Below are positions 1,303 through 17,749 of a stretch of 26,448 nt of DNA, piece by piece. The first letter of the stretch is position 1, and each line of letters opens with the position of its first letter. The translations under genes were made by a program, and so were the position numbers. The notes under the pieces were generated by a model. That model was not told the origin of the DNA. It made no database searches and saw only the letters and a program-made list of their open reading frames with translations. Source of the DNA: a virus; the IMG/VR virus record IMGVR_UViG_3300035698_002038, positions 1 to 26,448 of that record. The stretch is one strand, 5' to 3'.

Positions 1303-1412
1303 AACAAACCGAAACTTAACCAAACGCAACGAAACTAAACGAAACGAAGCATATCCTAACAAAACGGAACTAAACGGAACAAAACGAAACACAACCCAAC
1401 TAAACTAAACTA
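1303..1412 (+). repeat. ANCNN pentamer array 1 (22 units)
   Basis: Starting just after the VRR-NUC stop, 22 consecutive 5-bp units all have A at position 1 and C at position 3. Position 2 is mostly A, and positions 4-5 vary among units such as AACGA, AACTA, AACGG and ACCGA. The array ends in three AACTA units and is followed by an A-rich stretch and the SD GAAAGGAGAAT. It is a degenerate, strictly phased array rather than a simple tandem repeat. Confidence 0.9.
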
Positions 1413-1451
1413 AAACCCGAATATCAACCCACAGCGAAAGGAGAATCTATT

Positions 1452-2018
1452 ATGTTAAAAGTATTATGCGAATTAAAGGGAGTCACACCGGTAACATTTA
1501 ACAAAAAACTCAGATCCGAGAAAGGGCCAAACGAATCATATGACGAGTTTGAAAATCGCATATGGCGCGAAAGGTGCGATTGTAACGAAAAGGATGAACT
1601 TGTCCTAAGGGCCGCGCGGTTCAAAAAATCAATATGCCTGGGGGCGCAATGGCTGAATATGCAAATACCAGGAGAGGGCAAGGCCACATATACCAAACAT
1701 TTCAAGGGTGGCGTTATTGTTATGAATTCAATATCGCTTGATGTAAAGCGAAAGGATGCCAAGTTCGCAGACGAACCGGACGGGATTTATACGGCACCAA
1801 GAAAGGGCCAGGGCAAGCGATGGATACATTTCCCAATCGTGGAGCAATGGAAAGGCGAGTTACAGATCAACATCCTTGACGAGAAAATAACAGAAGGCGT
1901 TTTTGAAAAGGTTATCAATTACGCAGGCATGGCGGTCGGCATTGGTTCATGGCGTCCAGAAAATGCAGGCGAAAACGGTCGATATGAGTGTGTAGATATT
2001 GCTTTTGAAAAAGTATAA
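1452..2018 (+). CDS. Unrecognised phage protein lying between two ANCNN arrays
   Basis: A 188-residue soluble protein with SD GAAAGGAGAAT about 8 nt before the ATG. The N-terminal half has many charged residues and an R/W/C-rich patch (IWRERCDCNEKDE near residues 37-49). The middle has a hydrophobic strand-like segment (GGVIVMNSISLDV), and the C-terminal half has aromatic and Gly-rich stretches (KRWIHFP, GIGSWRPENAG). No signal peptide or membrane segment is visible. I do not recognise the family. Its position between arrays 1 and 2 makes it a candidate ligand or product of that system, which is inference only. Confidence 0.7.
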   Translation: MLKVLCELKGVTPVTFNKKLRSEKGPNESYDEFENRIWRERCDCNEKDELVLRAARFKKSICLGAQWLNMQIPGEGKATYTKHFKGGVIVMNSISLDVKRKDAKFADEPDGIYTAPRKGQGKRWIHFPIVEQWKGELQINILDEKITEGVFEKVINYAGMAVGIGSWRPENAGENGRYECVDIAFEKV

Positions 2019-2131
2019 CGCAACGCAACGAAACCGAACCAAACAGAACGAACCAAACCAAAACCGAACTTAACGGAACTCAACGAAACGAATCTCAGCG
2101 TAACATATCGCATCTAAACTAAACTAAACTA
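2017..2131 (+). repeat. ANCNN pentamer array 2 (23 units)
   Basis: The array begins on the last two bases of the preceding gene's TAA stop and contains 23 consecutive 5-bp units with A at position 1 and C at position 3. Units include AACGC, AACCG, ACCAA, ATCTC, AGCGT and ATCGC. It ends, like array 1, in three AACTA units, then an A-rich stretch and an SD (CAAAGGAGAATC) for the next gene. The shared flank with array 1 suggests duplication of a whole array-plus-SD module. Confidence 0.9.
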
Positions 2132-2159
2132 AATAAAAACAACAGCAAAGGAGAATCAA

Positions 2160-2681
2160 ATGGAAATCATAAATAAATTTAAGCCATTTAGGCTAAGCCC
2201 GTTGACAAAAGATATCGAAGATTTCATGAAAGAATTCGGCGAGGGTGAAGTCGTGGGATATGAAGACTTGGCAGATGTGATAGAAATGGGCTGCGAACCA
2301 GGGGAAAAAGGTTACAGTTATGTGATATCGGCAATCAAGCGGCTTGAACGATCAGGATGCAATTTTGCAAATATTCCTAATGTCGGGTATCGCAAGTTAA
2401 ATCCTAATGAAACGGTCGAGGATAATCACCGGCGCATATCAAACTCAAGAAAGCAGATCGGCCGCACATTAAAGCGAAACGAAGCCCTTGACTATAAGCG
2501 GCTCGGCGAGGTTGAAAAGATAGAATGGCAAGCCGCAACGGTATTCGGCAAATTAGCGGGGCGCATTCTGTCAGGCCGTGCCAAGGCCAAGATGATCGAA
2601 GCCATAAAGAAACAGCCGGATCGGGACAAGATTGACTACGATGGTCTGGCCGAAATATATTTGAGAAAAAAGGGTGTGTAA
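2160..2681 (+). CDS. Probable winged-helix DNA-binding protein, unknown role
   Basis: This 173-residue product starts at an ATG 6 nt after GGAGAATC. Residues about 15-80 look like a winged helix: a short helix, then GEVVGYEDLADVI (first helix), a turn, GYSYVISAIKRLERSG (recognition-helix position), and an aromatic/Gly wing ending GYRKLNP. The pattern resembles phage proteins with 'E-v-v-x-y-e-d-L' and 'G-y-x-x-L' signatures. The C-terminal half is basic and helical. Arrays 2 and 3 flank it, making it a candidate regulator or array-binding protein. The fold call is moderate; the function is unknown. Confidence 0.6.
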   Translation: MEIINKFKPFRLSPLTKDIEDFMKEFGEGEVVGYEDLADVIEMGCEPGEKGYSYVISAIKRLERSGCNFANIPNVGYRKLNPNETVEDNHRRISNSRKQIGRTLKRNEALDYKRLGEVEKIEWQAATVFGKLAGRILSGRAKAKMIEAIKKQPDRDKIDYDGLAEIYLRKKGV

Positions 2682-2684
2682 TAT

Positions 2685-2804
2685 ATCACAACCGAACGCA
2701 GCGAATCGTAACCGAGCGAAACTAATCCTATCATAACTCAACAAATCGCAACGTAACCAAACTGACCGAAGCATAACTCATCGAAGCAAAACAGAACTTA
2801 ACAA
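2685..2804 (+). repeat. ANCNN pentamer array 3 (24 units)
   Basis: Immediately after the winged-helix gene, 24 consecutive 5-bp units all keep A at position 1 and C at position 3. This is the most degenerate array at position 2 (A, T, G and C all occur: ATCAC, AGCGA, ACCGA, AACTG), which shows that A1 and C3 are what is conserved. It stops 12 bp before the -35 box of the promoter at 2817. Confidence 0.9.
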
Positions 2805-2816
2805 ACAACATTTCCC

Positions 2817-2846
2817 TTGACAAAAACATCGACCCGACCACATAAT
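2817..2846 (+). promoter_or_regulatory. Predicted sigma70-type promoter of the late operon
   Basis: A perfect TTGACA (2817-2822) is followed after 18 bp by CATAAT (2841-2846), five of six matches to the -10 consensus. It lies in the longest gene-free gap of the window, just after array 3 and upstream of the long operon beginning with the ParB-methyltransferase gene. Expected transcription start is near 2852-2854. Confidence 0.7.
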
Positions 2847-2967
2847 GTAGTCTCTGGCGGGGTTGATGGCCCGCCAAAAGGCCAGTCTACTGCGTAGAAT
2901 ATGGTCTCTTTTCCTAACCCTGTCCTGGTTGATGAGAGACAACCAGGGCGGGGCTTCAAGGGTGCTT
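2847..2967 (+). promoter_or_regulatory. Structured 5' leader with paired hairpins
   Basis: Between the promoter and the first ATG the sequence forms TGGCGGG/CCCGCCA (2855-2861 with 2870-2876, 8-nt loop) and CCTGGTTG/CAACCAGG (2924-2931 with 2940-2947, 8-nt loop). Both contain GGTTGATG. Alternative pairings exist: CTGGC with GCCAG (2881-2885), GTAG with CTAC (2887-2890), and two copies of GTCTCT (2850-2855, 2904-2909) that could each pair with AGAGAC (2935-2940). Such exclusive pairings are typical of attenuators or riboswitch-like leaders. No known riboswitch class is recognised. Confidence 0.45.
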
Positions 2968-4161
2968 ATGATAATTGAAACGGTGGACATAACCAAACTC
3001 AATCCGGCACCATACAACCCGCGTAAAGACCTGTCACCTGAAGACCCTGAATATCAGAAACTAAAGAAATCCATACTTGAATTCGAATATATTGATCCCC
3101 TGATCGTGAACAAAAGGGGTTTGGTAGTTGTCGGCGGGCATCAACGATTGAAGATCCTGAAAGAATTGGATTACAAGGAAATCGATGTCAGCATGGTCGA
3201 TCTGGAACCCGTCAAGGAAAAGGCGCTCAATATTGCCCTGAACAAGATCGGCGGCGAATGGGATTACCCGAAGCTGAAAGACCTGATCGTGGAGATCGAC
3301 ACAGGGGATATCGACATAGAGGTTACGGGGTTTGACCAGGCAGAGCTTGACGACATATTCGGGCATATTGGCCCGCCGCCATTGGTTGACGATGACGATG
3401 TGCCAGAAGTGCCAGACGAACCCACGACCATGCTCGGCGATCTGTATGTCCTGGGCGATCATAGGTTGTTATGTGGGGATGCCACGAAGCAAGAGGATGT
3501 CGCGTTATTGATGGATGGCGAAAGGGCCGATATGGTTTTTACTGACCCGCCTTATGGCGTGAATTACAAGGGTGGCCAATTTAATCCGAACCGTAAAAAG
3601 ATGATAGCAGACGATTCAACAGCGATTTACAATCTATTCCTGCCTGTCCTTTTGCCGTTTGTGACCGGCCCGATTTATATGTGGTTTGCAGACATAAGAG
3701 GGTATGAGGTATATAGGGCAGTTGTTGAAAGCGGATGCGAAATTCATGCGCTGATAATATGGCACAAGACCAATGCGACTTATGCAGCCATGAACGCACA
3801 GTACAAGCAACGGCATGAGCCTTGTCTATACTTCAAGCCGAAGGGCAAAACGCTGAAATGGTGTGGGGCTTCCACAGAAGCGACCCTATGGGAAATGAAG
3901 CGCGACCCCGCCAATGATATGCATCCAACGCAGAAACCGGTCGAGTTGGCAGAGAGGGCCATAAAAAACCATAAAGCAATGTCAGTTCTCGACCTGTTCG
4001 GCGGCTCAGGCTCAACCCTGATTGCCTGTGAAAAGATAGGAAGGCAATGCTATATGATGGAAATTGACCCGCATTACACAGATGTGATCGTAAAGCGGTA
4101 TGAAGACTACACCGGCAACAAAGCAGAGCTACGAGGGCCGAGAGCAAGGCAGGCGGCATAA
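2968..4161 (+). CDS. ParB-like domain fused to DNA adenine (N6/N4) methyltransferase
   Basis: The 397-residue protein has an N-terminal ParB/Srx-like domain (residues about 1-100, with NPRKD and GGHQRL) and a C-terminal amino-methyltransferase domain. The catalytic DPPY is at residues 193-196, and the SAM-binding FGGSGST begins at residue 344, so the order DPPY then F-x-G-x-G marks a beta-class enzyme. HPTQKP precedes the SAM motif as in the YhdJ/CcrM type. It probably methylates adenine in phage DNA to evade restriction or mark packaging. I placed the start at ATG 2968 because the conserved domain begins there and the 5' extension runs through the hairpin leader. Its stop overlaps the terminase small subunit start (TAATG). 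Confidence 0.88.
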   Translation: MIIETVDITKLNPAPYNPRKDLSPEDPEYQKLKKSILEFEYIDPLIVNKRGLVVVGGHQRLKILKELDYKEIDVSMVDLEPVKEKALNIALNKIGGEWDYPKLKDLIVEIDTGDIDIEVTGFDQAELDDIFGHIGPPPLVDDDDVPEVPDEPTTMLGDLYVLGDHRLLCGDATKQEDVALLMDGERADMVFTDPPYGVNYKGGQFNPNRKKMIADDSTAIYNLFLPVLLPFVTGPIYMWFADIRGYEVYRAVVESGCEIHALIIWHKTNATYAAMNAQYKQRHEPCLYFKPKGKTLKWCGASTEATLWEMKRDPANDMHPTQKPVELAERAIKNHKAMSVLDLFGGSGSTLIACEKIGRQCYMMEIDPHYTDVIVKRYEDYTGNKAELRGPRARQAA

Positions 4162-8997: not shown

Positions 8998-9714
8998 ATG
9001 TATAAGACCCTACAAACCATAACCACAATCGAGTTGGCAAATATCTGCAATCTGTCATGCTTGTATTGCGTCAATCGGTTCCTGGTGAAGCACCCGAGTC
9101 GATCACCTGGGATAATGGACAATGACGTATTTGACGCGGCCCTGGATGTCCTGGGGCAGCTATGCAAGGCAGGCACCCAGGCCGAGATAAACATGAACGG
9201 CACCGGCGAATCGTGTCTTGACCCGCAGCTGCCCAGGCGGTTGCGCAGGGTCAGAGATATCATGGGTTCAGGACAGGTGCAATTTTGCACAAACGGCGTG
9301 AATATGACCAAGATCCTGGCAACCAAGCTGAAAGATGCGGGTATCGACCGGATCGATATATCAATACACAACCCGTATTATGCCCGAAGGTGTGCGGATC
9401 TGCTTATGGATGTTGGTATCACAGGCATATTTTCAACCGGCGCATTGACGAGTCAGCATTCGTGGGCCGGTCAGTTGCCGCCAGAGGACACAGTTAAAAA
9501 GATTATACCCTATCAATGTGACCCGATTATTCAGGGCCGTGGGTACGTTCAGAAAGAGGGCGATATCACACCATGTTGTTTTGATTATCGATCCCTGGGC
9601 GTGTTCGGTACGGTGTTTGATGAGGATGTTTTAGCCCGATTGGTGGTGCCATACGCATTATGTGAAACATGCCATATGGTATTGCCGGAAACAGGAAAGG
9701 AGAAAGCAGCATGA
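8998..9714 (+). CDS. Radical SAM protein with C-terminal twitch/SPASM-like Cys cluster (copy A)
   Basis: The 238-residue protein has the radical SAM motif C-x3-C-x2-C at Cys17, 21 and 24 (CNLSCLYC), which holds the 4Fe-4S cluster that cleaves S-adenosylmethionine. GTGES near residue 66 replaces the usual GGEP, and a QFCTNG strand and DRIDISIHN follow. The C-terminus has Cys174, Cys193-194 and CETC (222, 225), suited to an auxiliary cluster as in twitch or SPASM domains. Such enzymes modify peptides, sugars or other small substrates; the substrate here is unknown. The SD is AAAGGAGAAA (8979-8988). The stop overlaps the next start (ATGA). It is a paralogue of the gene at 10600. Confidence 0.85.
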   Translation: MYKTLQTITTIELANICNLSCLYCVNRFLVKHPSRSPGIMDNDVFDAALDVLGQLCKAGTQAEINMNGTGESCLDPQLPRRLRRVRDIMGSGQVQFCTNGVNMTKILATKLKDAGIDRIDISIHNPYYARRCADLLMDVGITGIFSTGALTSQHSWAGQLPPEDTVKKIIPYQCDPIIQGRGYVQKEGDITPCCFDYRSLGVFGTVFDEDVLARLVVPYALCETCHMVLPETGKEKAA

Positions 9715-9920: not shown

Positions 9921-10603
9921 CCGATAACACCCGATACATGAACGGCGAATGGTATGAAATGGAATATTCACACGGATGGTATCGCAAGATGTATATTGAC
10001 GGGGTCATGCCCAGGCACGCGCTCGCGTCATATCGGTACAATGTTGATATGGCGATTGCGATGACCGGCGTAAATCGTGACGCGACGATCCTCGACTTGG
10101 GCAGCGGTGTGGGGCATTCCATGAAAATCTGGAAAGCCCGGGGGTTTATCAATGTGTCAGGAATAGAGATCAGCCCGACCGCGGTTAGGGCATCCGGCAA
10201 TCCGAAGATCGCGCTCGGTTCAATCGCGGATATGCATATGTATAAAGATAAACAATTCGACATCGTGACATCCACAGCGGTTTTAGAGCATATCGATAAG
10301 AGCCAGGAAGTCGCGGCGATACAAGAAGCGATCAGGGTCGGGCATAGACAGGTTCACTATGTCGGCTTGGATGCCGGTCAAGATCCGAGCCATATCAATA
10401 TCAAAACGATTGACGAATGGGCCGAACTGTTTACCCGATATTTTGACGGCATGACGGCAGTAATACCCGATGACATAACCGGCGATCCGATCCTGTTGTG
10501 TGTGCCTGACAATCTGCTTATATACCCGATGCGGCGGTGCGTGAAATGGCCCCTGCAAATACAGGCCAACGGAATGATCGATGAAAAAGGAGAGAGGATA
10601 TGA
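9917..10603 (+). CDS. Class I SAM-dependent methyltransferase
   Basis: The 228-residue protein has the class I motif I ILDLGSGVGHSMK (residues about 58-70), a GIEIS post-I acid, and STAVLEHI (near 117-124) typical of motif IV in small-molecule and sugar methyltransferases. It then has GHRQVHYVGLD in place of a usual motif V-VI. The frame starts at TTG 9917, which overlaps the previous stop and has AAGGG at 9906-9910 at good distance; ATG 9938 (MNGEW) is the alternative. It overlaps the second radical SAM gene (ATGA). The N-terminal W/Y-rich stretch resembles methyltransferases of polysaccharide clusters. The substrate is unknown. Confidence 0.82.
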   Translation: MTDNTRYMNGEWYEMEYSHGWYRKMYIDGVMPRHALASYRYNVDMAIAMTGVNRDATILDLGSGVGHSMKIWKARGFINVSGIEISPTAVRASGNPKIALGSIADMHMYKDKQFDIVTSTAVLEHIDKSQEVAAIQEAIRVGHRQVHYVGLDAGQDPSHINIKTIDEWAELFTRYFDGMTAVIPDDITGDPILLCVPDNLLIYPMRRCVKWPLQIQANGMIDEKGERI

Positions 10604-11295
10604 AACCAACCACGATAAACACAATCGAATTATCGAGCAAGTGCGACAACACGTGCGAATACTGTTGCGCCCCTGTTCAACACAAATATCGTGAAACCGG
10701 CTTCATGGCCTGGGAAGTGTTTGAGAAAGCAATCGAGTGGGTCAAGTATTATTGCAAACGGCGCACACAGCTTGAATTGAACCTGATGGGTGTCGGCGAA
10801 TCGACCCTGCATCCCGATCTGATCGACATGGTGCGATACGCATATCAGCAGTTACCGTTTCGTCAGTTGCTTCATATAAGCACAAACGGCAATACCCTGA
10901 CTATGGATATGGCAAAGGGGCTGAAAGACGCAGGAATTAGCCGCATACACGTTTCAGGACACAAACCCAGATCAATTGCCAGGGCGTTGCGGATATTACA
11001 GGACGCAGCAATCCCGACAGGGTACAGCGTGGATTTCATGACCCGACCGAATGATTGGGCCGGTCAAATAAAGTGGTTCCCGAGCCGCGAGCATTACCCC
11101 TGCCCCTGGTTGGAGAAAGGGCAGTTGGCTGTTTTGAGTTCAGGCCATATCACCCGATGTTGCACAGATGCATTTGCCAAGGGCATATTGGGAACTATTG
11201 ACGATGACATAAAAGATTTCGATATCGTGCCGTTTGAGTTGTGCGAAACTTGCCACCAGACGGTACCGGAAACGCATGTAATACCGATAATATGA
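10600..11295 (+). CDS. Radical SAM protein with C-terminal twitch/SPASM-like Cys cluster (copy B)
   Basis: The 231-residue paralogue of the 8998 product has radical SAM Cys15, 19 and 22 (CDNTCEYC, with an extra Cys23). GVGES stands in place of GGEP, followed by ISTNGNTL and RIHVSGHKP. The C-terminal set Cys168, Cys187-188 and CETC (215, 218) has the same 19-residue first spacing as copy A and shares the ending LCETCH-x3-PET. The pair therefore arose by duplication and has diverged in the central part, which suggests related but distinct substrates. It is the last gene before the terminator at 11402. Confidence 0.85.
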   Translation: MKPTTINTIELSSKCDNTCEYCCAPVQHKYRETGFMAWEVFEKAIEWVKYYCKRRTQLELNLMGVGESTLHPDLIDMVRYAYQQLPFRQLLHISTNGNTLTMDMAKGLKDAGISRIHVSGHKPRSIARALRILQDAAIPTGYSVDFMTRPNDWAGQIKWFPSREHYPCPWLEKGQLAVLSSGHITRCCTDAFAKGILGTIDDDIKDFDIVPFELCETCHQTVPETHVIPII

Positions 11296-14860: not shown

Positions 14861-17749
14861 ATGTTTATATGTATACATGCATCCGGCCTGCCATTCAACG
14901 GTAACACCATACCTTCCGGCGAAAGCCTGGGGGGGAGTGAATCGGCAGCATATTACATGGCGCGAGAATTGGTGGCATTGGGCCACAAGGTATATGTGTT
15001 TACAAACTCAAAACATTCCGGCGTATGGGATGGGGTCAATTACGAATGGTCTGGTACTCCTACCCAGGAAAACCCGATGGGTGATCGATTCGATTATGTC
15101 ATGCGCACACCCTGGGATGTCTTGATTTGTCAACGGCATCCCCTGGCGTTCGTTAAAAAGTACATTACTAAGCTTAACATCTGGTGGCTGCATGATCTGG
15201 CATTAAAGCGGTTCCTGGGCCTTGCTCAACCGAGTTTTGTGAACATCGATAAGGTGTTCTGCGTGTCCGAGTTTCACCGGCAACAGGTGTCAACGGTGTA
15301 TGGTATTGATGAAAGCCATATCATAGCAACAAAAAATGGAGTTGATTACACACAATTTGAAGGGCTTGACGAATTCCAGAGAGAACCCAATTCGTTAGTG
15401 TTTGCAGCGCGACCAGAACGCGGGCTTGCCGAGTTGGTGGGCGAGGGTGGGATTATGGAAAGTCTGCCAGAACAGCATTTATATGTATGCGGGTATGACA
15501 ACACGGTTCCGCAGATGCGCGAGTATTACAGAATCTTATGGGATCGATGCGAAAAACTACCCAATGTCACGAACTGCGGGGCGTTAGGTAAGCGCGACCT
15601 GTACGAATTATTTGCACGATCCATGCTGTATGTTTACCCGACCACGTTTGAAGATACGAGCAATATCGTGGCGATGGAATCCAATGCAGCAGGCACGCCG
15701 TTCCTGTCGATGGCACATGCAGCATTACCGGAAACCATCGGGCATGACGGCGCGATCCTCTTGCCGTTCAAGGACGAGAAAAACAAAGTAGTTGATATCC
15801 CGTTGTTTGCCAAAACGGTCAAGGACATCCTGGGCGATCAAGCGAAGTGGGAACGCCTACACACCAAAGCAGTTTCAAAATATCAATCATGGCCCGACAT
15901 TGCAAAGGGCTGGTCTGAGCAGTTCACACAGTTGATGCAGGAGAAATCCGCAGGAAAGGAACGGCTTGCGCGTCATCTGGTTAAGCACAGCGATATCGTG
16001 GCCCTGAATCATTTATACCAGAACGACACAGATGCAATCAACGAGGTCATACCCGATTACAAAACCAATTATGATATGTATATCAACAACGATTATACTG
16101 CGTATCTCAACAGATATTATGATCATGAAGCGGCAAAGGGCGTTCTTTACGGCCCCGAATCCTTAGACGGCAAGGGCCGGTTTGAATCGATTTCAGACAT
16201 GGTCGGCAAGATCAACCCGAAGTCGTTGCTTGATTATGGTTGCGCACATGGCCCTATTCTGATGAATCTGGCGGGCCGGTATAAAGACATTGCGTACACC
16301 GGATATGATATCAATGAATCCAATATCGATAAAGCAATCGCATGGGCGGCAAAAGAGCAGGAACACATTACGCACCCTGTTAAATTTTTCACCGGAGAGC
16401 ATACCGATGTCGAGGGAATGTTCGATTGCATCCTGTTGACCGAGGTCCTTGAGCATGTTCCAGATCCGGTCGGGTTGGTCGAGGAGTTGCGCAAACACCT
16501 GAACCCCGAGGGAACAATGGTTATCGGCACACCATACGGCCCCTGGGAAGCATTGGGGTATGATGAGAACCCAGGATGGCGGGCACATATACACCATTAT
16601 GCACGGCCGGATCTATTTGAACTGTTCGGCGATCAACCCGAATATTATATTATCGCAATCCCCTGGAGCCTACACGGTTTAGGGCATTTTATGGTGACGT
16701 TCAAGAATTCAGATATACCGATAGGCCAGATCAATTACGACCGCAAACTGCGGGAACAGGCACCGAGGGAAACGGTATCGCTATGCATGATCGTGAAAAA
16801 TGCCGGTAAAAGCCTGTCAAAGACGCTTTCCAAGTGCGCGGCGTATGTGGACGAGATCATAATCGGCGTTGACAACACGACAACGGACGATACGAAGGAC
16901 ATCGCGGCACAGTATGGGTCAATCATCATTGATATCGAAAGCCCCTTTAAAATCGGATTTGACGGGGCCAGAAACGCCACGGTTGATACGGCTTCAATGG
17001 ATTGGATATTGTGGATCGATGACGATGAACTGTTAGAGTATGCAGACACGTTGGAATATTATCTGCGCCCGAATGTTTACGATGGTTATGGGATCAATCA
17101 GCACCATTTCGCAACGGAGCCGGCAGCGTTATTCAAAACTGATATGCCGATCCGGTTGTTTAGGAATGTCGGCGATGTGCATTTCAAGGGGTTCGTGCAT
17201 GAGCATCCGACCAAGGATGACGATATCAATGCCGGAGTCGGGCGCATATGGGTACTTCCAGAAGTAGCGATAATGCACACCGGATATCCGACCGAGGAAA
17301 TCAGGCGGGAACGGTTCAAAAGAAATTGGCCCTTGATCAATGAGGATCATAAACGATACCCCGACCGGCACCTGGGTAAAATGTTATGGATCAGGGATCT
17401 TGCACATATGATCAAGTACGAGTTAGAGCGCACCGGCGGGCAACCGTTTGAGGAGATGAGAACAATGGCGACCCTGATCGTTCAGGGATGGATCGAGTTG
17501 ATTGATTTGAAACAGGGCCGGATGGCGATAGAAACCCTGCCATATTATTCCGAAGCGGTATCAGTATTGGGCAACGGCGGGATTGACTTTGCAATGGCCC
17601 ACGACATGATCATGGGCAACAACGGACAGCGGGCGAACCCTGCGGCCCAGGAAATCGCGGGCCTGTTCCAGAACGGCGATCATATCAGAAGATTCACTGC
17701 CATGTTGATCAACGAATCCGCACAACGATACGAGGGAGATTACGTCTAA
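14861..17749 (+). CDS. Three-domain GT4 glycosyltransferase / SAM methyltransferase / GT2 glycosyltransferase
   Basis: The 962-residue protein joins three enzymes. Residues 1 to about 380 are a GT-B, GT4-like glycosyltransferase (GGSESAAYYMARELVALGH, FCVSEFHRQQ, YPTTFEDTSNIVAMES). Residues about 450-620 are a class I methyltransferase (LLDYGCAHGP, LLTEVLEHVPDPVGL). Residues about 637-870 are a GT-A, GT2-like transferase (SLCMIVKNAGKSL, then WIDDDE near 717 as the metal-binding DxD-like motif). There is no membrane segment. Such multi-domain proteins build or cap glycans. It lies between a small head gene and a connector gene, with a TAATG overlap downstream, so it is expressed with virion genes. 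Virion glycosylation or host-surface remodelling is possible. Confidence 0.85.
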   Translation: MFICIHASGLPFNGNTIPSGESLGGSESAAYYMARELVALGHKVYVFTNSKHSGVWDGVNYEWSGTPTQENPMGDRFDYVMRTPWDVLICQRHPLAFVKKYITKLNIWWLHDLALKRFLGLAQPSFVNIDKVFCVSEFHRQQVSTVYGIDESHIIATKNGVDYTQFEGLDEFQREPNSLVFAARPERGLAELVGEGGIMESLPEQHLYVCGYDNTVPQMREYYRILWDRCEKLPNVTNCGALGKRDLYELFARSMLYVYPTTFEDTSNIVAMESNAAGTPFLSMAHAALPETIGHDGAILLPFKDEKNKVVDIPLFAKTVKDILGDQAKWERLHTKAVSKYQSWPDIAKGWSEQFTQLMQEKSAGKERLARHLVKHSDIVALNHLYQNDTDAINEVIPDYKTNYDMYINNDYTAYLNRYYDHEAAKGVLYGPESLDGKGRFESISDMVGKINPKSLLDYGCAHGPILMNLAGRYKDIAYTGYDINESNIDKAIAWAAKEQEHITHPVKFFTGEHTDVEGMFDCILLTEVLEHVPDPVGLVEELRKHLNPEGTMVIGTPYGPWEALGYDENPGWRAHIHHYARPDLFELFGDQPEYYIIAIPWSLHGLGHFMVTFKNSDIPIGQINYDRKLREQAPRETVSLCMIVKNAGKSLSKTLSKCAAYVDEIIIGVDNTTTDDTKDIAAQYGSIIIDIESPFKIGFDGARNATVDTASMDWILWIDDDELLEYADTLEYYLRPNVYDGYGINQHHFATEPAALFKTDMPIRLFRNVGDVHFKGFVHEHPTKDDDINAGVGRIWVLPEVAIMHTGYPTEEIRRERFKRNWPLINEDHKRYPDRHLGKMLWIRDLAHMIKYELERTGGQPFEEMRTMATLIVQGWIELIDLKQGRMAIETLPYYSEAVSVLGNGGIDFAMAHDMIMGNNGQRANPAAQEIAGLFQNGDHIRRFTAMLINESAQRYEGDYV

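Follow-up and report, generated by a model that had tools for sequence, protein, structure and literature searches.

Genes and arrays at the locus

The stretch of DNA analyzed here, referred to below as the window, is a 26,448-bp virus record from IMG/VR. Within it, two genes on the plus strand alternate with three arrays of tandem pentamers, each made up of an ANC triplet followed by a dinucleotide (ANC/NN). Array 1 (1303..1412, plus strand) holds 22 units, lies upstream of the first gene, a vipr homologue, and ends in three units that all read AACTA. Array 2 (2017..2131, plus strand) holds 23 units between vipr and the second gene, a vap homologue; its first unit begins in the vipr stop codon, and it too closes with three copies of AACTA. 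Array 3 (2685..2804, plus strand) holds 24 units and starts 4 bp past the vap stop codon. The A at position 1 and the C at position 3 are invariant in all 69 units, position 2 is mostly A (A 49, T 10, G 6, C 4), and positions 4 and 5 vary. The coordinates, unit numbers and A1/C3 invariance given in a preliminary description of this DNA were exact on recount, and a search of both strands of the whole window found no further ANCNN run of six or more units. That description had also held that neither chance nor simple slippage could give such arrays, and it named equally long runs in shuffled sequence as a result that would speak against it. None appeared: with 5000 mononucleotide shuffles and as many Markov shuffles per array, the longest ANCNN run was six units, which upholds the claim. 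A microsatellite or coding-repeat origin of the window arrays was considered and rejected, as the units are diverse and only A1 and C3 are fixed.

The preprint that reported VIPR in 2026 describes, in its main text, a virus-borne system of noncontiguous RNA-guided DNA recognition, a relative of CRISPR thought to be older than CRISPR, made up of the small RAMP protein Vipr, an accessory gene vap, and guide RNAs called vrRNAs (PMC13142463). Escherichia phage SUSP1 carries one of its type II systems, as does a Pseudomonas fulva prophage (PMC13142463). The SUSP1 proteins used here were picked by position, as the sole SUSP1 gene pair between long intergenic arrays, where the preprint places vipr and vap; they correspond to 28474-29061 (vipr) and 28031-28471 (vap), and the GGY arrays that flank them run on the same strand.

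The first gene of the window (1452..2018, plus strand) encodes 188 amino acids and is preceded by an AAAGGAG ribosome-binding-like site, read directly from the sequence, at 1437..1443, between array 1 and vipr. The stretch ACAGC(G)AAAGGAGAATC is in common with the corresponding site after array 2. With phmmer, the protein matches open reading frames adjoining arrays in more than 30 loci and matches SUSP1 Vipr directly (E 2e-4). The family PHROG 4652 (phrog_4652) matches the window protein at 3.9e-8 and SUSP1 Vipr at 7.9e-96 and covers 45 of 46 aligned homologues, while an HMM of Vipr built without SUSP1 had SUSP1 Vipr as its sole match (4.9e-48). Toward the C-terminus, the alignment shows the glycine-rich loop of RAMP proteins, which in the window protein reads AGMAVGIGSWRPENAGENGRY. 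An AlphaFold (AF2) model of the gene product has a pLDDT of 91.9, and the solved structures listed as matching it are Cas7/Csm3/Cmr RAMPs, including chains of Csm3 and of type VII Cas7, and VIA Z scores reach 11.7 over 158-162 residues. Judged by profile, alignment and predicted fold, gene 1452 is a homologue of Vipr and thus a small (about 20 kDa) member of the RAMP family.

The adjacent gene (2160..2681, plus strand) has its own AAAGGAG ribosome-binding-like site at 2147..2153, again by direct reading, and encodes a 173-amino-acid, phrog_5926-like protein with a profile match to SUSP1 vap; an HMM of the family built without SUSP1 found the SUSP1 gene at 5e-21. The protein is predicted to consist of a winged helix and long helices. 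The N-terminal domain has a weak Foldseek match to winged-helix folds (E 0.1, prob 0.98), so that Vap probably contains a winged-helix domain. After array 3, a promoter-like TTGACA-18-CATAAT (2817..2846, plus strand), recognized by consensus match only, points into the next gene and probably marks the right border of the locus. That gene (2962-4161), directly past the border, encodes an N6/N4 DNA methyltransferase that carries a fused ParB-like domain. Elsewhere in the window, the phage structural region encodes two radical SAM proteins (8998-9714 and 10600-11295) with a methyltransferase between them, and 14861-17749 encodes a 962-amino-acid protein composed of a glycosyltransferase, a methyltransferase and a second glycosyltransferase domain.

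Association of phased arrays with Vipr

The preliminary description had proposed searching phage sequence sets for such arrays and inspecting the neighboring genes, a route that did yield the explanation. A scan of IMG/VR viral contigs for 14 consecutive ANCNN units returned at least 120 stretches. About half of the listed matches were microsatellites or 15-bp coding repeats. Among the matches listed, 61 loci, the window counted, carried arrays of diverse units, often several per locus and with a second letter specific to the locus. Vipr was present in the fetched stretch of 49 of these 61 loci versus 0 of 60 microsatellite or coding-repeat loci (Fisher 1e-22, among the matches listed), and a search of whole records placed Vipr elsewhere in the record for two more. 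In seven records with diverse phased arrays (L011, L072, L080, L116, L120, L122 and L128), Vipr was not detected anywhere; either the arrays are orphans or of satellite type, or the contigs are incomplete, or the protein is more divergent. Seven bacterial genome matches of the array pattern likewise contained no Vipr match.

The reverse, unbiased search gave the same association. When Vipr sequence was the sole criterion for choosing loci, phased arrays were present in 69 of the 80 fetched; as in the window, they usually lie ahead of vipr, in the gap between the two genes, and after vap. The ANCNN arrays are not an orphan motif. Array number varies widely, with as many as 16 near one vipr in L054, 11 in L104 and 10 in L031, some of them overlapping or back to back. 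One record (L067; G004:C1:7522-8127) has a good Vipr match (1.4e-37) with a single in-frame TGA; the virus may be recoded, or the gene disrupted.

Variation of the scaffold triplet

The nearest relative of the window is L129, whose Vipr is 69-70% identical to that of the window and forms a fully supported pair with it on the Vipr tree (100/99). L129 has three arrays in the same places, built of A-N-Y units in which A1 is kept and C3 becomes C or T; in its array 2, A1 is present in 24 of 24 units and position 3 is C in 16, T in 6 and A in 2. More distant relatives have a different triplet and retain the five-nucleotide phase and flanking genes. Since C3 is relaxed in L129 and the triplet is swapped farther out while phase and genes stay, it is the phase that is conserved, and the letters are lineage-specific. 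Loss of the A1/C3 phase in homologues that keep the flanking genes had been named as grounds for abandoning selection on the arrays. As it turned out, the five-nucleotide phase persists along with the genes, and only the letters give way. The statement that A1 and C3 must be selected stands for the window, but the two letters are a choice made in this lineage and not universal contacts.

How far the letters vary was surveyed in 65 distinct loci of the Vipr-fetched set, among them the window and L129. On the vipr strand, the majority triplets were CGC and GGC (24 loci each), GAC (8), AAC, AGT and CTC (2 each), and GTC, GTT and GAT (1 each), with the window and L129 as the two AAC loci; earlier locus sets add the classes GGT, AGC, GCT and CGA. 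Position 3 was a pyrimidine, C or T, in all 65 loci. The CGA/NN arrays that adjoin Vipr in L138, L139 and L141, outside the 65-locus set, have a purine there and are an exception to this rule. They were recovered by a CNANN scan that had been intended as a control and, as it finds Vipr loci, is not a negative control. On the Vipr tree the triplet label is clustered but has switched many times, with 14 changes for 9 labels versus a shuffled mean of 32. The window shows noncoding pentamer arrays flanking the genes, with a conserved triplet and a hypervariable NN (ANC/NN in 69 of 69 units), and relatives in the same clade use GGC, GAC and CGC, among other triplets.

We consider it probable that Vipr and the VIPR scaffold triplet evolve together, the triplet being a recognition code that changes fast and differs by lineage: position 3 is a pyrimidine, position 1 is G, C or A, and position 2 is loose. 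The window phage would then have an A-N-C version with exceptionally long guides of 22-24 steps. The nine majority triplets among the 65 surveyed relatives of the window Vipr make plain that the repeat code varies. They offer a natural alphabet for studying how RAMP proteins read a scaffold per five nucleotides, and long phased pentamer runs provide a simple route to such systems from raw sequence. If the code does co-evolve with Vipr, many of the Vipr/vrRNA pairs in nature would potentially be orthogonal, and combined sequence and motif data could expose the residues that determine the code.

Proposed function and alternative readings

The locus, with its order of array, vipr, array, vap and array, is very probably a VIPR locus. 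Because the first gene is a Vipr homologue and the second a vap homologue, the three arrays are most likely vrRNAs, a reading drawn from homology. Transcription along the vipr strand would turn each array into a guide RNA, on which Vipr subunits would polymerize, one per five nucleotides, each gripping an A-N-C trinucleotide. In this lineage the scaffold code, A-N-C with AAC preferred, would replace the published GGY, with A1 and C3 as the gripped scaffold and NN as the guide. The 22-24 exposed dinucleotides may then pair with double-stranded DNA over about 66-72 bp, one base being skipped per dinucleotide, so that the three arrays would provide three guides of 44-48 read bases. Binding, probably aided by a DNA-binding Vap, would repress genes that belong to a rival phage or mobile element. 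The preliminary description had favored a protein repeating every five nucleotides, and on RNA this is now the best explanation. Positions 4 and 5, which it had called free, probably hold functional information as guide dinucleotides, to judge from VIPR homology.

The guides could instead be read from the opposite strand of the same kind of locus, which would give the code GNT/NN (mostly GTT), closer to GGY. Fairly close relatives do carry GTT, GAT and GGT arrays on the vipr strand, and there are a few weak minus-strand promoter-like sites, at background frequency. However, several observations favor transcription of the arrays on the vipr strand. Position 3 on that strand is the pyrimidine found in 65 of 65 loci, where AAC is a near variant of GAC, GGC and CGC, and strands are never mixed within a diverse-array locus among the matches listed. 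In related loci, NN reads AA in 8% of the first three units and 38% of the last three on the vipr strand, a rise toward the 3' end that is mirrored by the constant AACTA ends of window arrays 1 and 2. ACC-type arrays were nearly absent from the vipr strand in the first locus set; they would be expected there if GGT arrays could lie in either orientation. Finally, since arrays 2 and 3 start in or 4 bp past stop codons, a tail on the opposite strand would have no intergenic space. Taken together, these make reading from the opposite strand unlikely. Somewhat less likely still is that the arrays are autoregulatory sites on the vipr and vap mRNAs, similar to a TRAP-bound leader, rather than guides. 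Arrays 1 and 2 do lie just upstream of the vipr and vap ribosome-binding-like sites, as in many relatives, but array 3 lies past vap with no such gene start directly after it. Hypervariable NN and multiple arrays per locus (16 in L054, 11 in L104) fit guides better than a single regulatory site, and the main text of the preprint describes the arrays of the published Vipr homologue as guides (PMC13142463).

Very improbable, by comparison, is a filament site for RecT or another annealing protein, a partition or replication site, or a loading site for Rho, all of which the preliminary description had entertained. The five-nucleotide spacing and G-poor strand are in keeping with such sites, but the neighboring protein has a CRISPR-type RAMP fold rather than that of a TRAP-, RecT- or Rho-like protein, and the arrays track Vipr across viruses. 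A partition or replication site is unsupported. The letters also differ by lineage, and the GC-rich CGC, GGC and AGC arrays are not G-poor.

Regarding the vrRNA reading, the folding of arrays or tails as RNA was no better than that of shuffles, and no hammerhead ribozymes were found between arrays with Rfam in the window and 13 relatives. Searches for targets gave little. Three IMG/VR scans with exact 9-unit xNN patterns returned 0 or 1 match each, without convincing extension, and a fourth returned none; tblastn of phage genomes with three decoded-peptide queries produced nothing convincing. The best candidate target, in L145, agrees at 29 of 44 positions, 18 of which were required by the seed, and is not significant, and all-against-all target matches among the fetched loci equaled shuffled controls. 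These results weigh little, as the competitors of an environmental phage may be absent from the collections. In the window, each of the three arrays fits codon positions 1-2, as would agree with skipping of the wobble base, and the test was also positive in the first GNT/ANC set; the signal was not reproduced in the wider clade set, which was mixed, and is therefore given little weight.

Comparison with known systems

TRAP, which binds NAG-repeat RNA, contacts conserved triplets set five nucleotides apart, with two unconstrained spacer bases between them. The spacers carry no information, and the ring site has eleven repeats. The window arrays are analogous in their triplet every five nucleotides with two spacer bases, but the fold of the window Vipr is unrelated to TRAP. 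A closer likeness is to the Cas7/Csm3 backbone of Class 1 CRISPR-Cas systems, with which the window protein shares the RAMP fold and glycine-rich loop (Z up to 11.7) and, by our reading, the formation of a protein polymer on a guide RNA. Unlike those systems, the window has a period of five instead of six and one small RAMP protein only. A tandem-repeat scan found no CRISPR repeat-spacer array in the window, and neither cas1 nor another cas gene was seen beside the locus, where the neighbors checked are a nuclease, the ParB-methyltransferase and a terminase.

The main text of the preprint describes vrRNAs that alternate GGY with a hypervariable NN over 9-16 pentamers, the NN dinucleotides recognizing double-stranded DNA with one base skipped each, and an invariable structured 3' tail on type II vrRNAs (PMC13142463). 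Compared with type II as described there, the window differs in its triplet, which is ANC, or GNT on the opposite strand, where just 4 of 69 units have G at position 2, and in its 22, 23 and 24 repeats. Its Vipr sits in another clade than that of SUSP1. No structured 3' tail was recognized; arrays 1 and 2 end in constant AACTA units, and a short stretch is shared by the sites that follow them. Given the other triplet and repeat number, and with no structured tail found, we do not claim membership in the type II GGY class as described there. The preprint words the array consensus as "GGY/NN or a related consensus" (PMC13142463). GGY/NN is the form given in its main text, and the ANC code may already figure among the related consensus motifs of its fig. 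S17. With the VIPR loci of SUSP1 and P. fulva, as the main text presents them, the window shares a phage-borne small RAMP gene next to vap, arrays on the vipr strand, and flanking intergenic tandem pentamers that combine a conserved triplet with a hypervariable NN.
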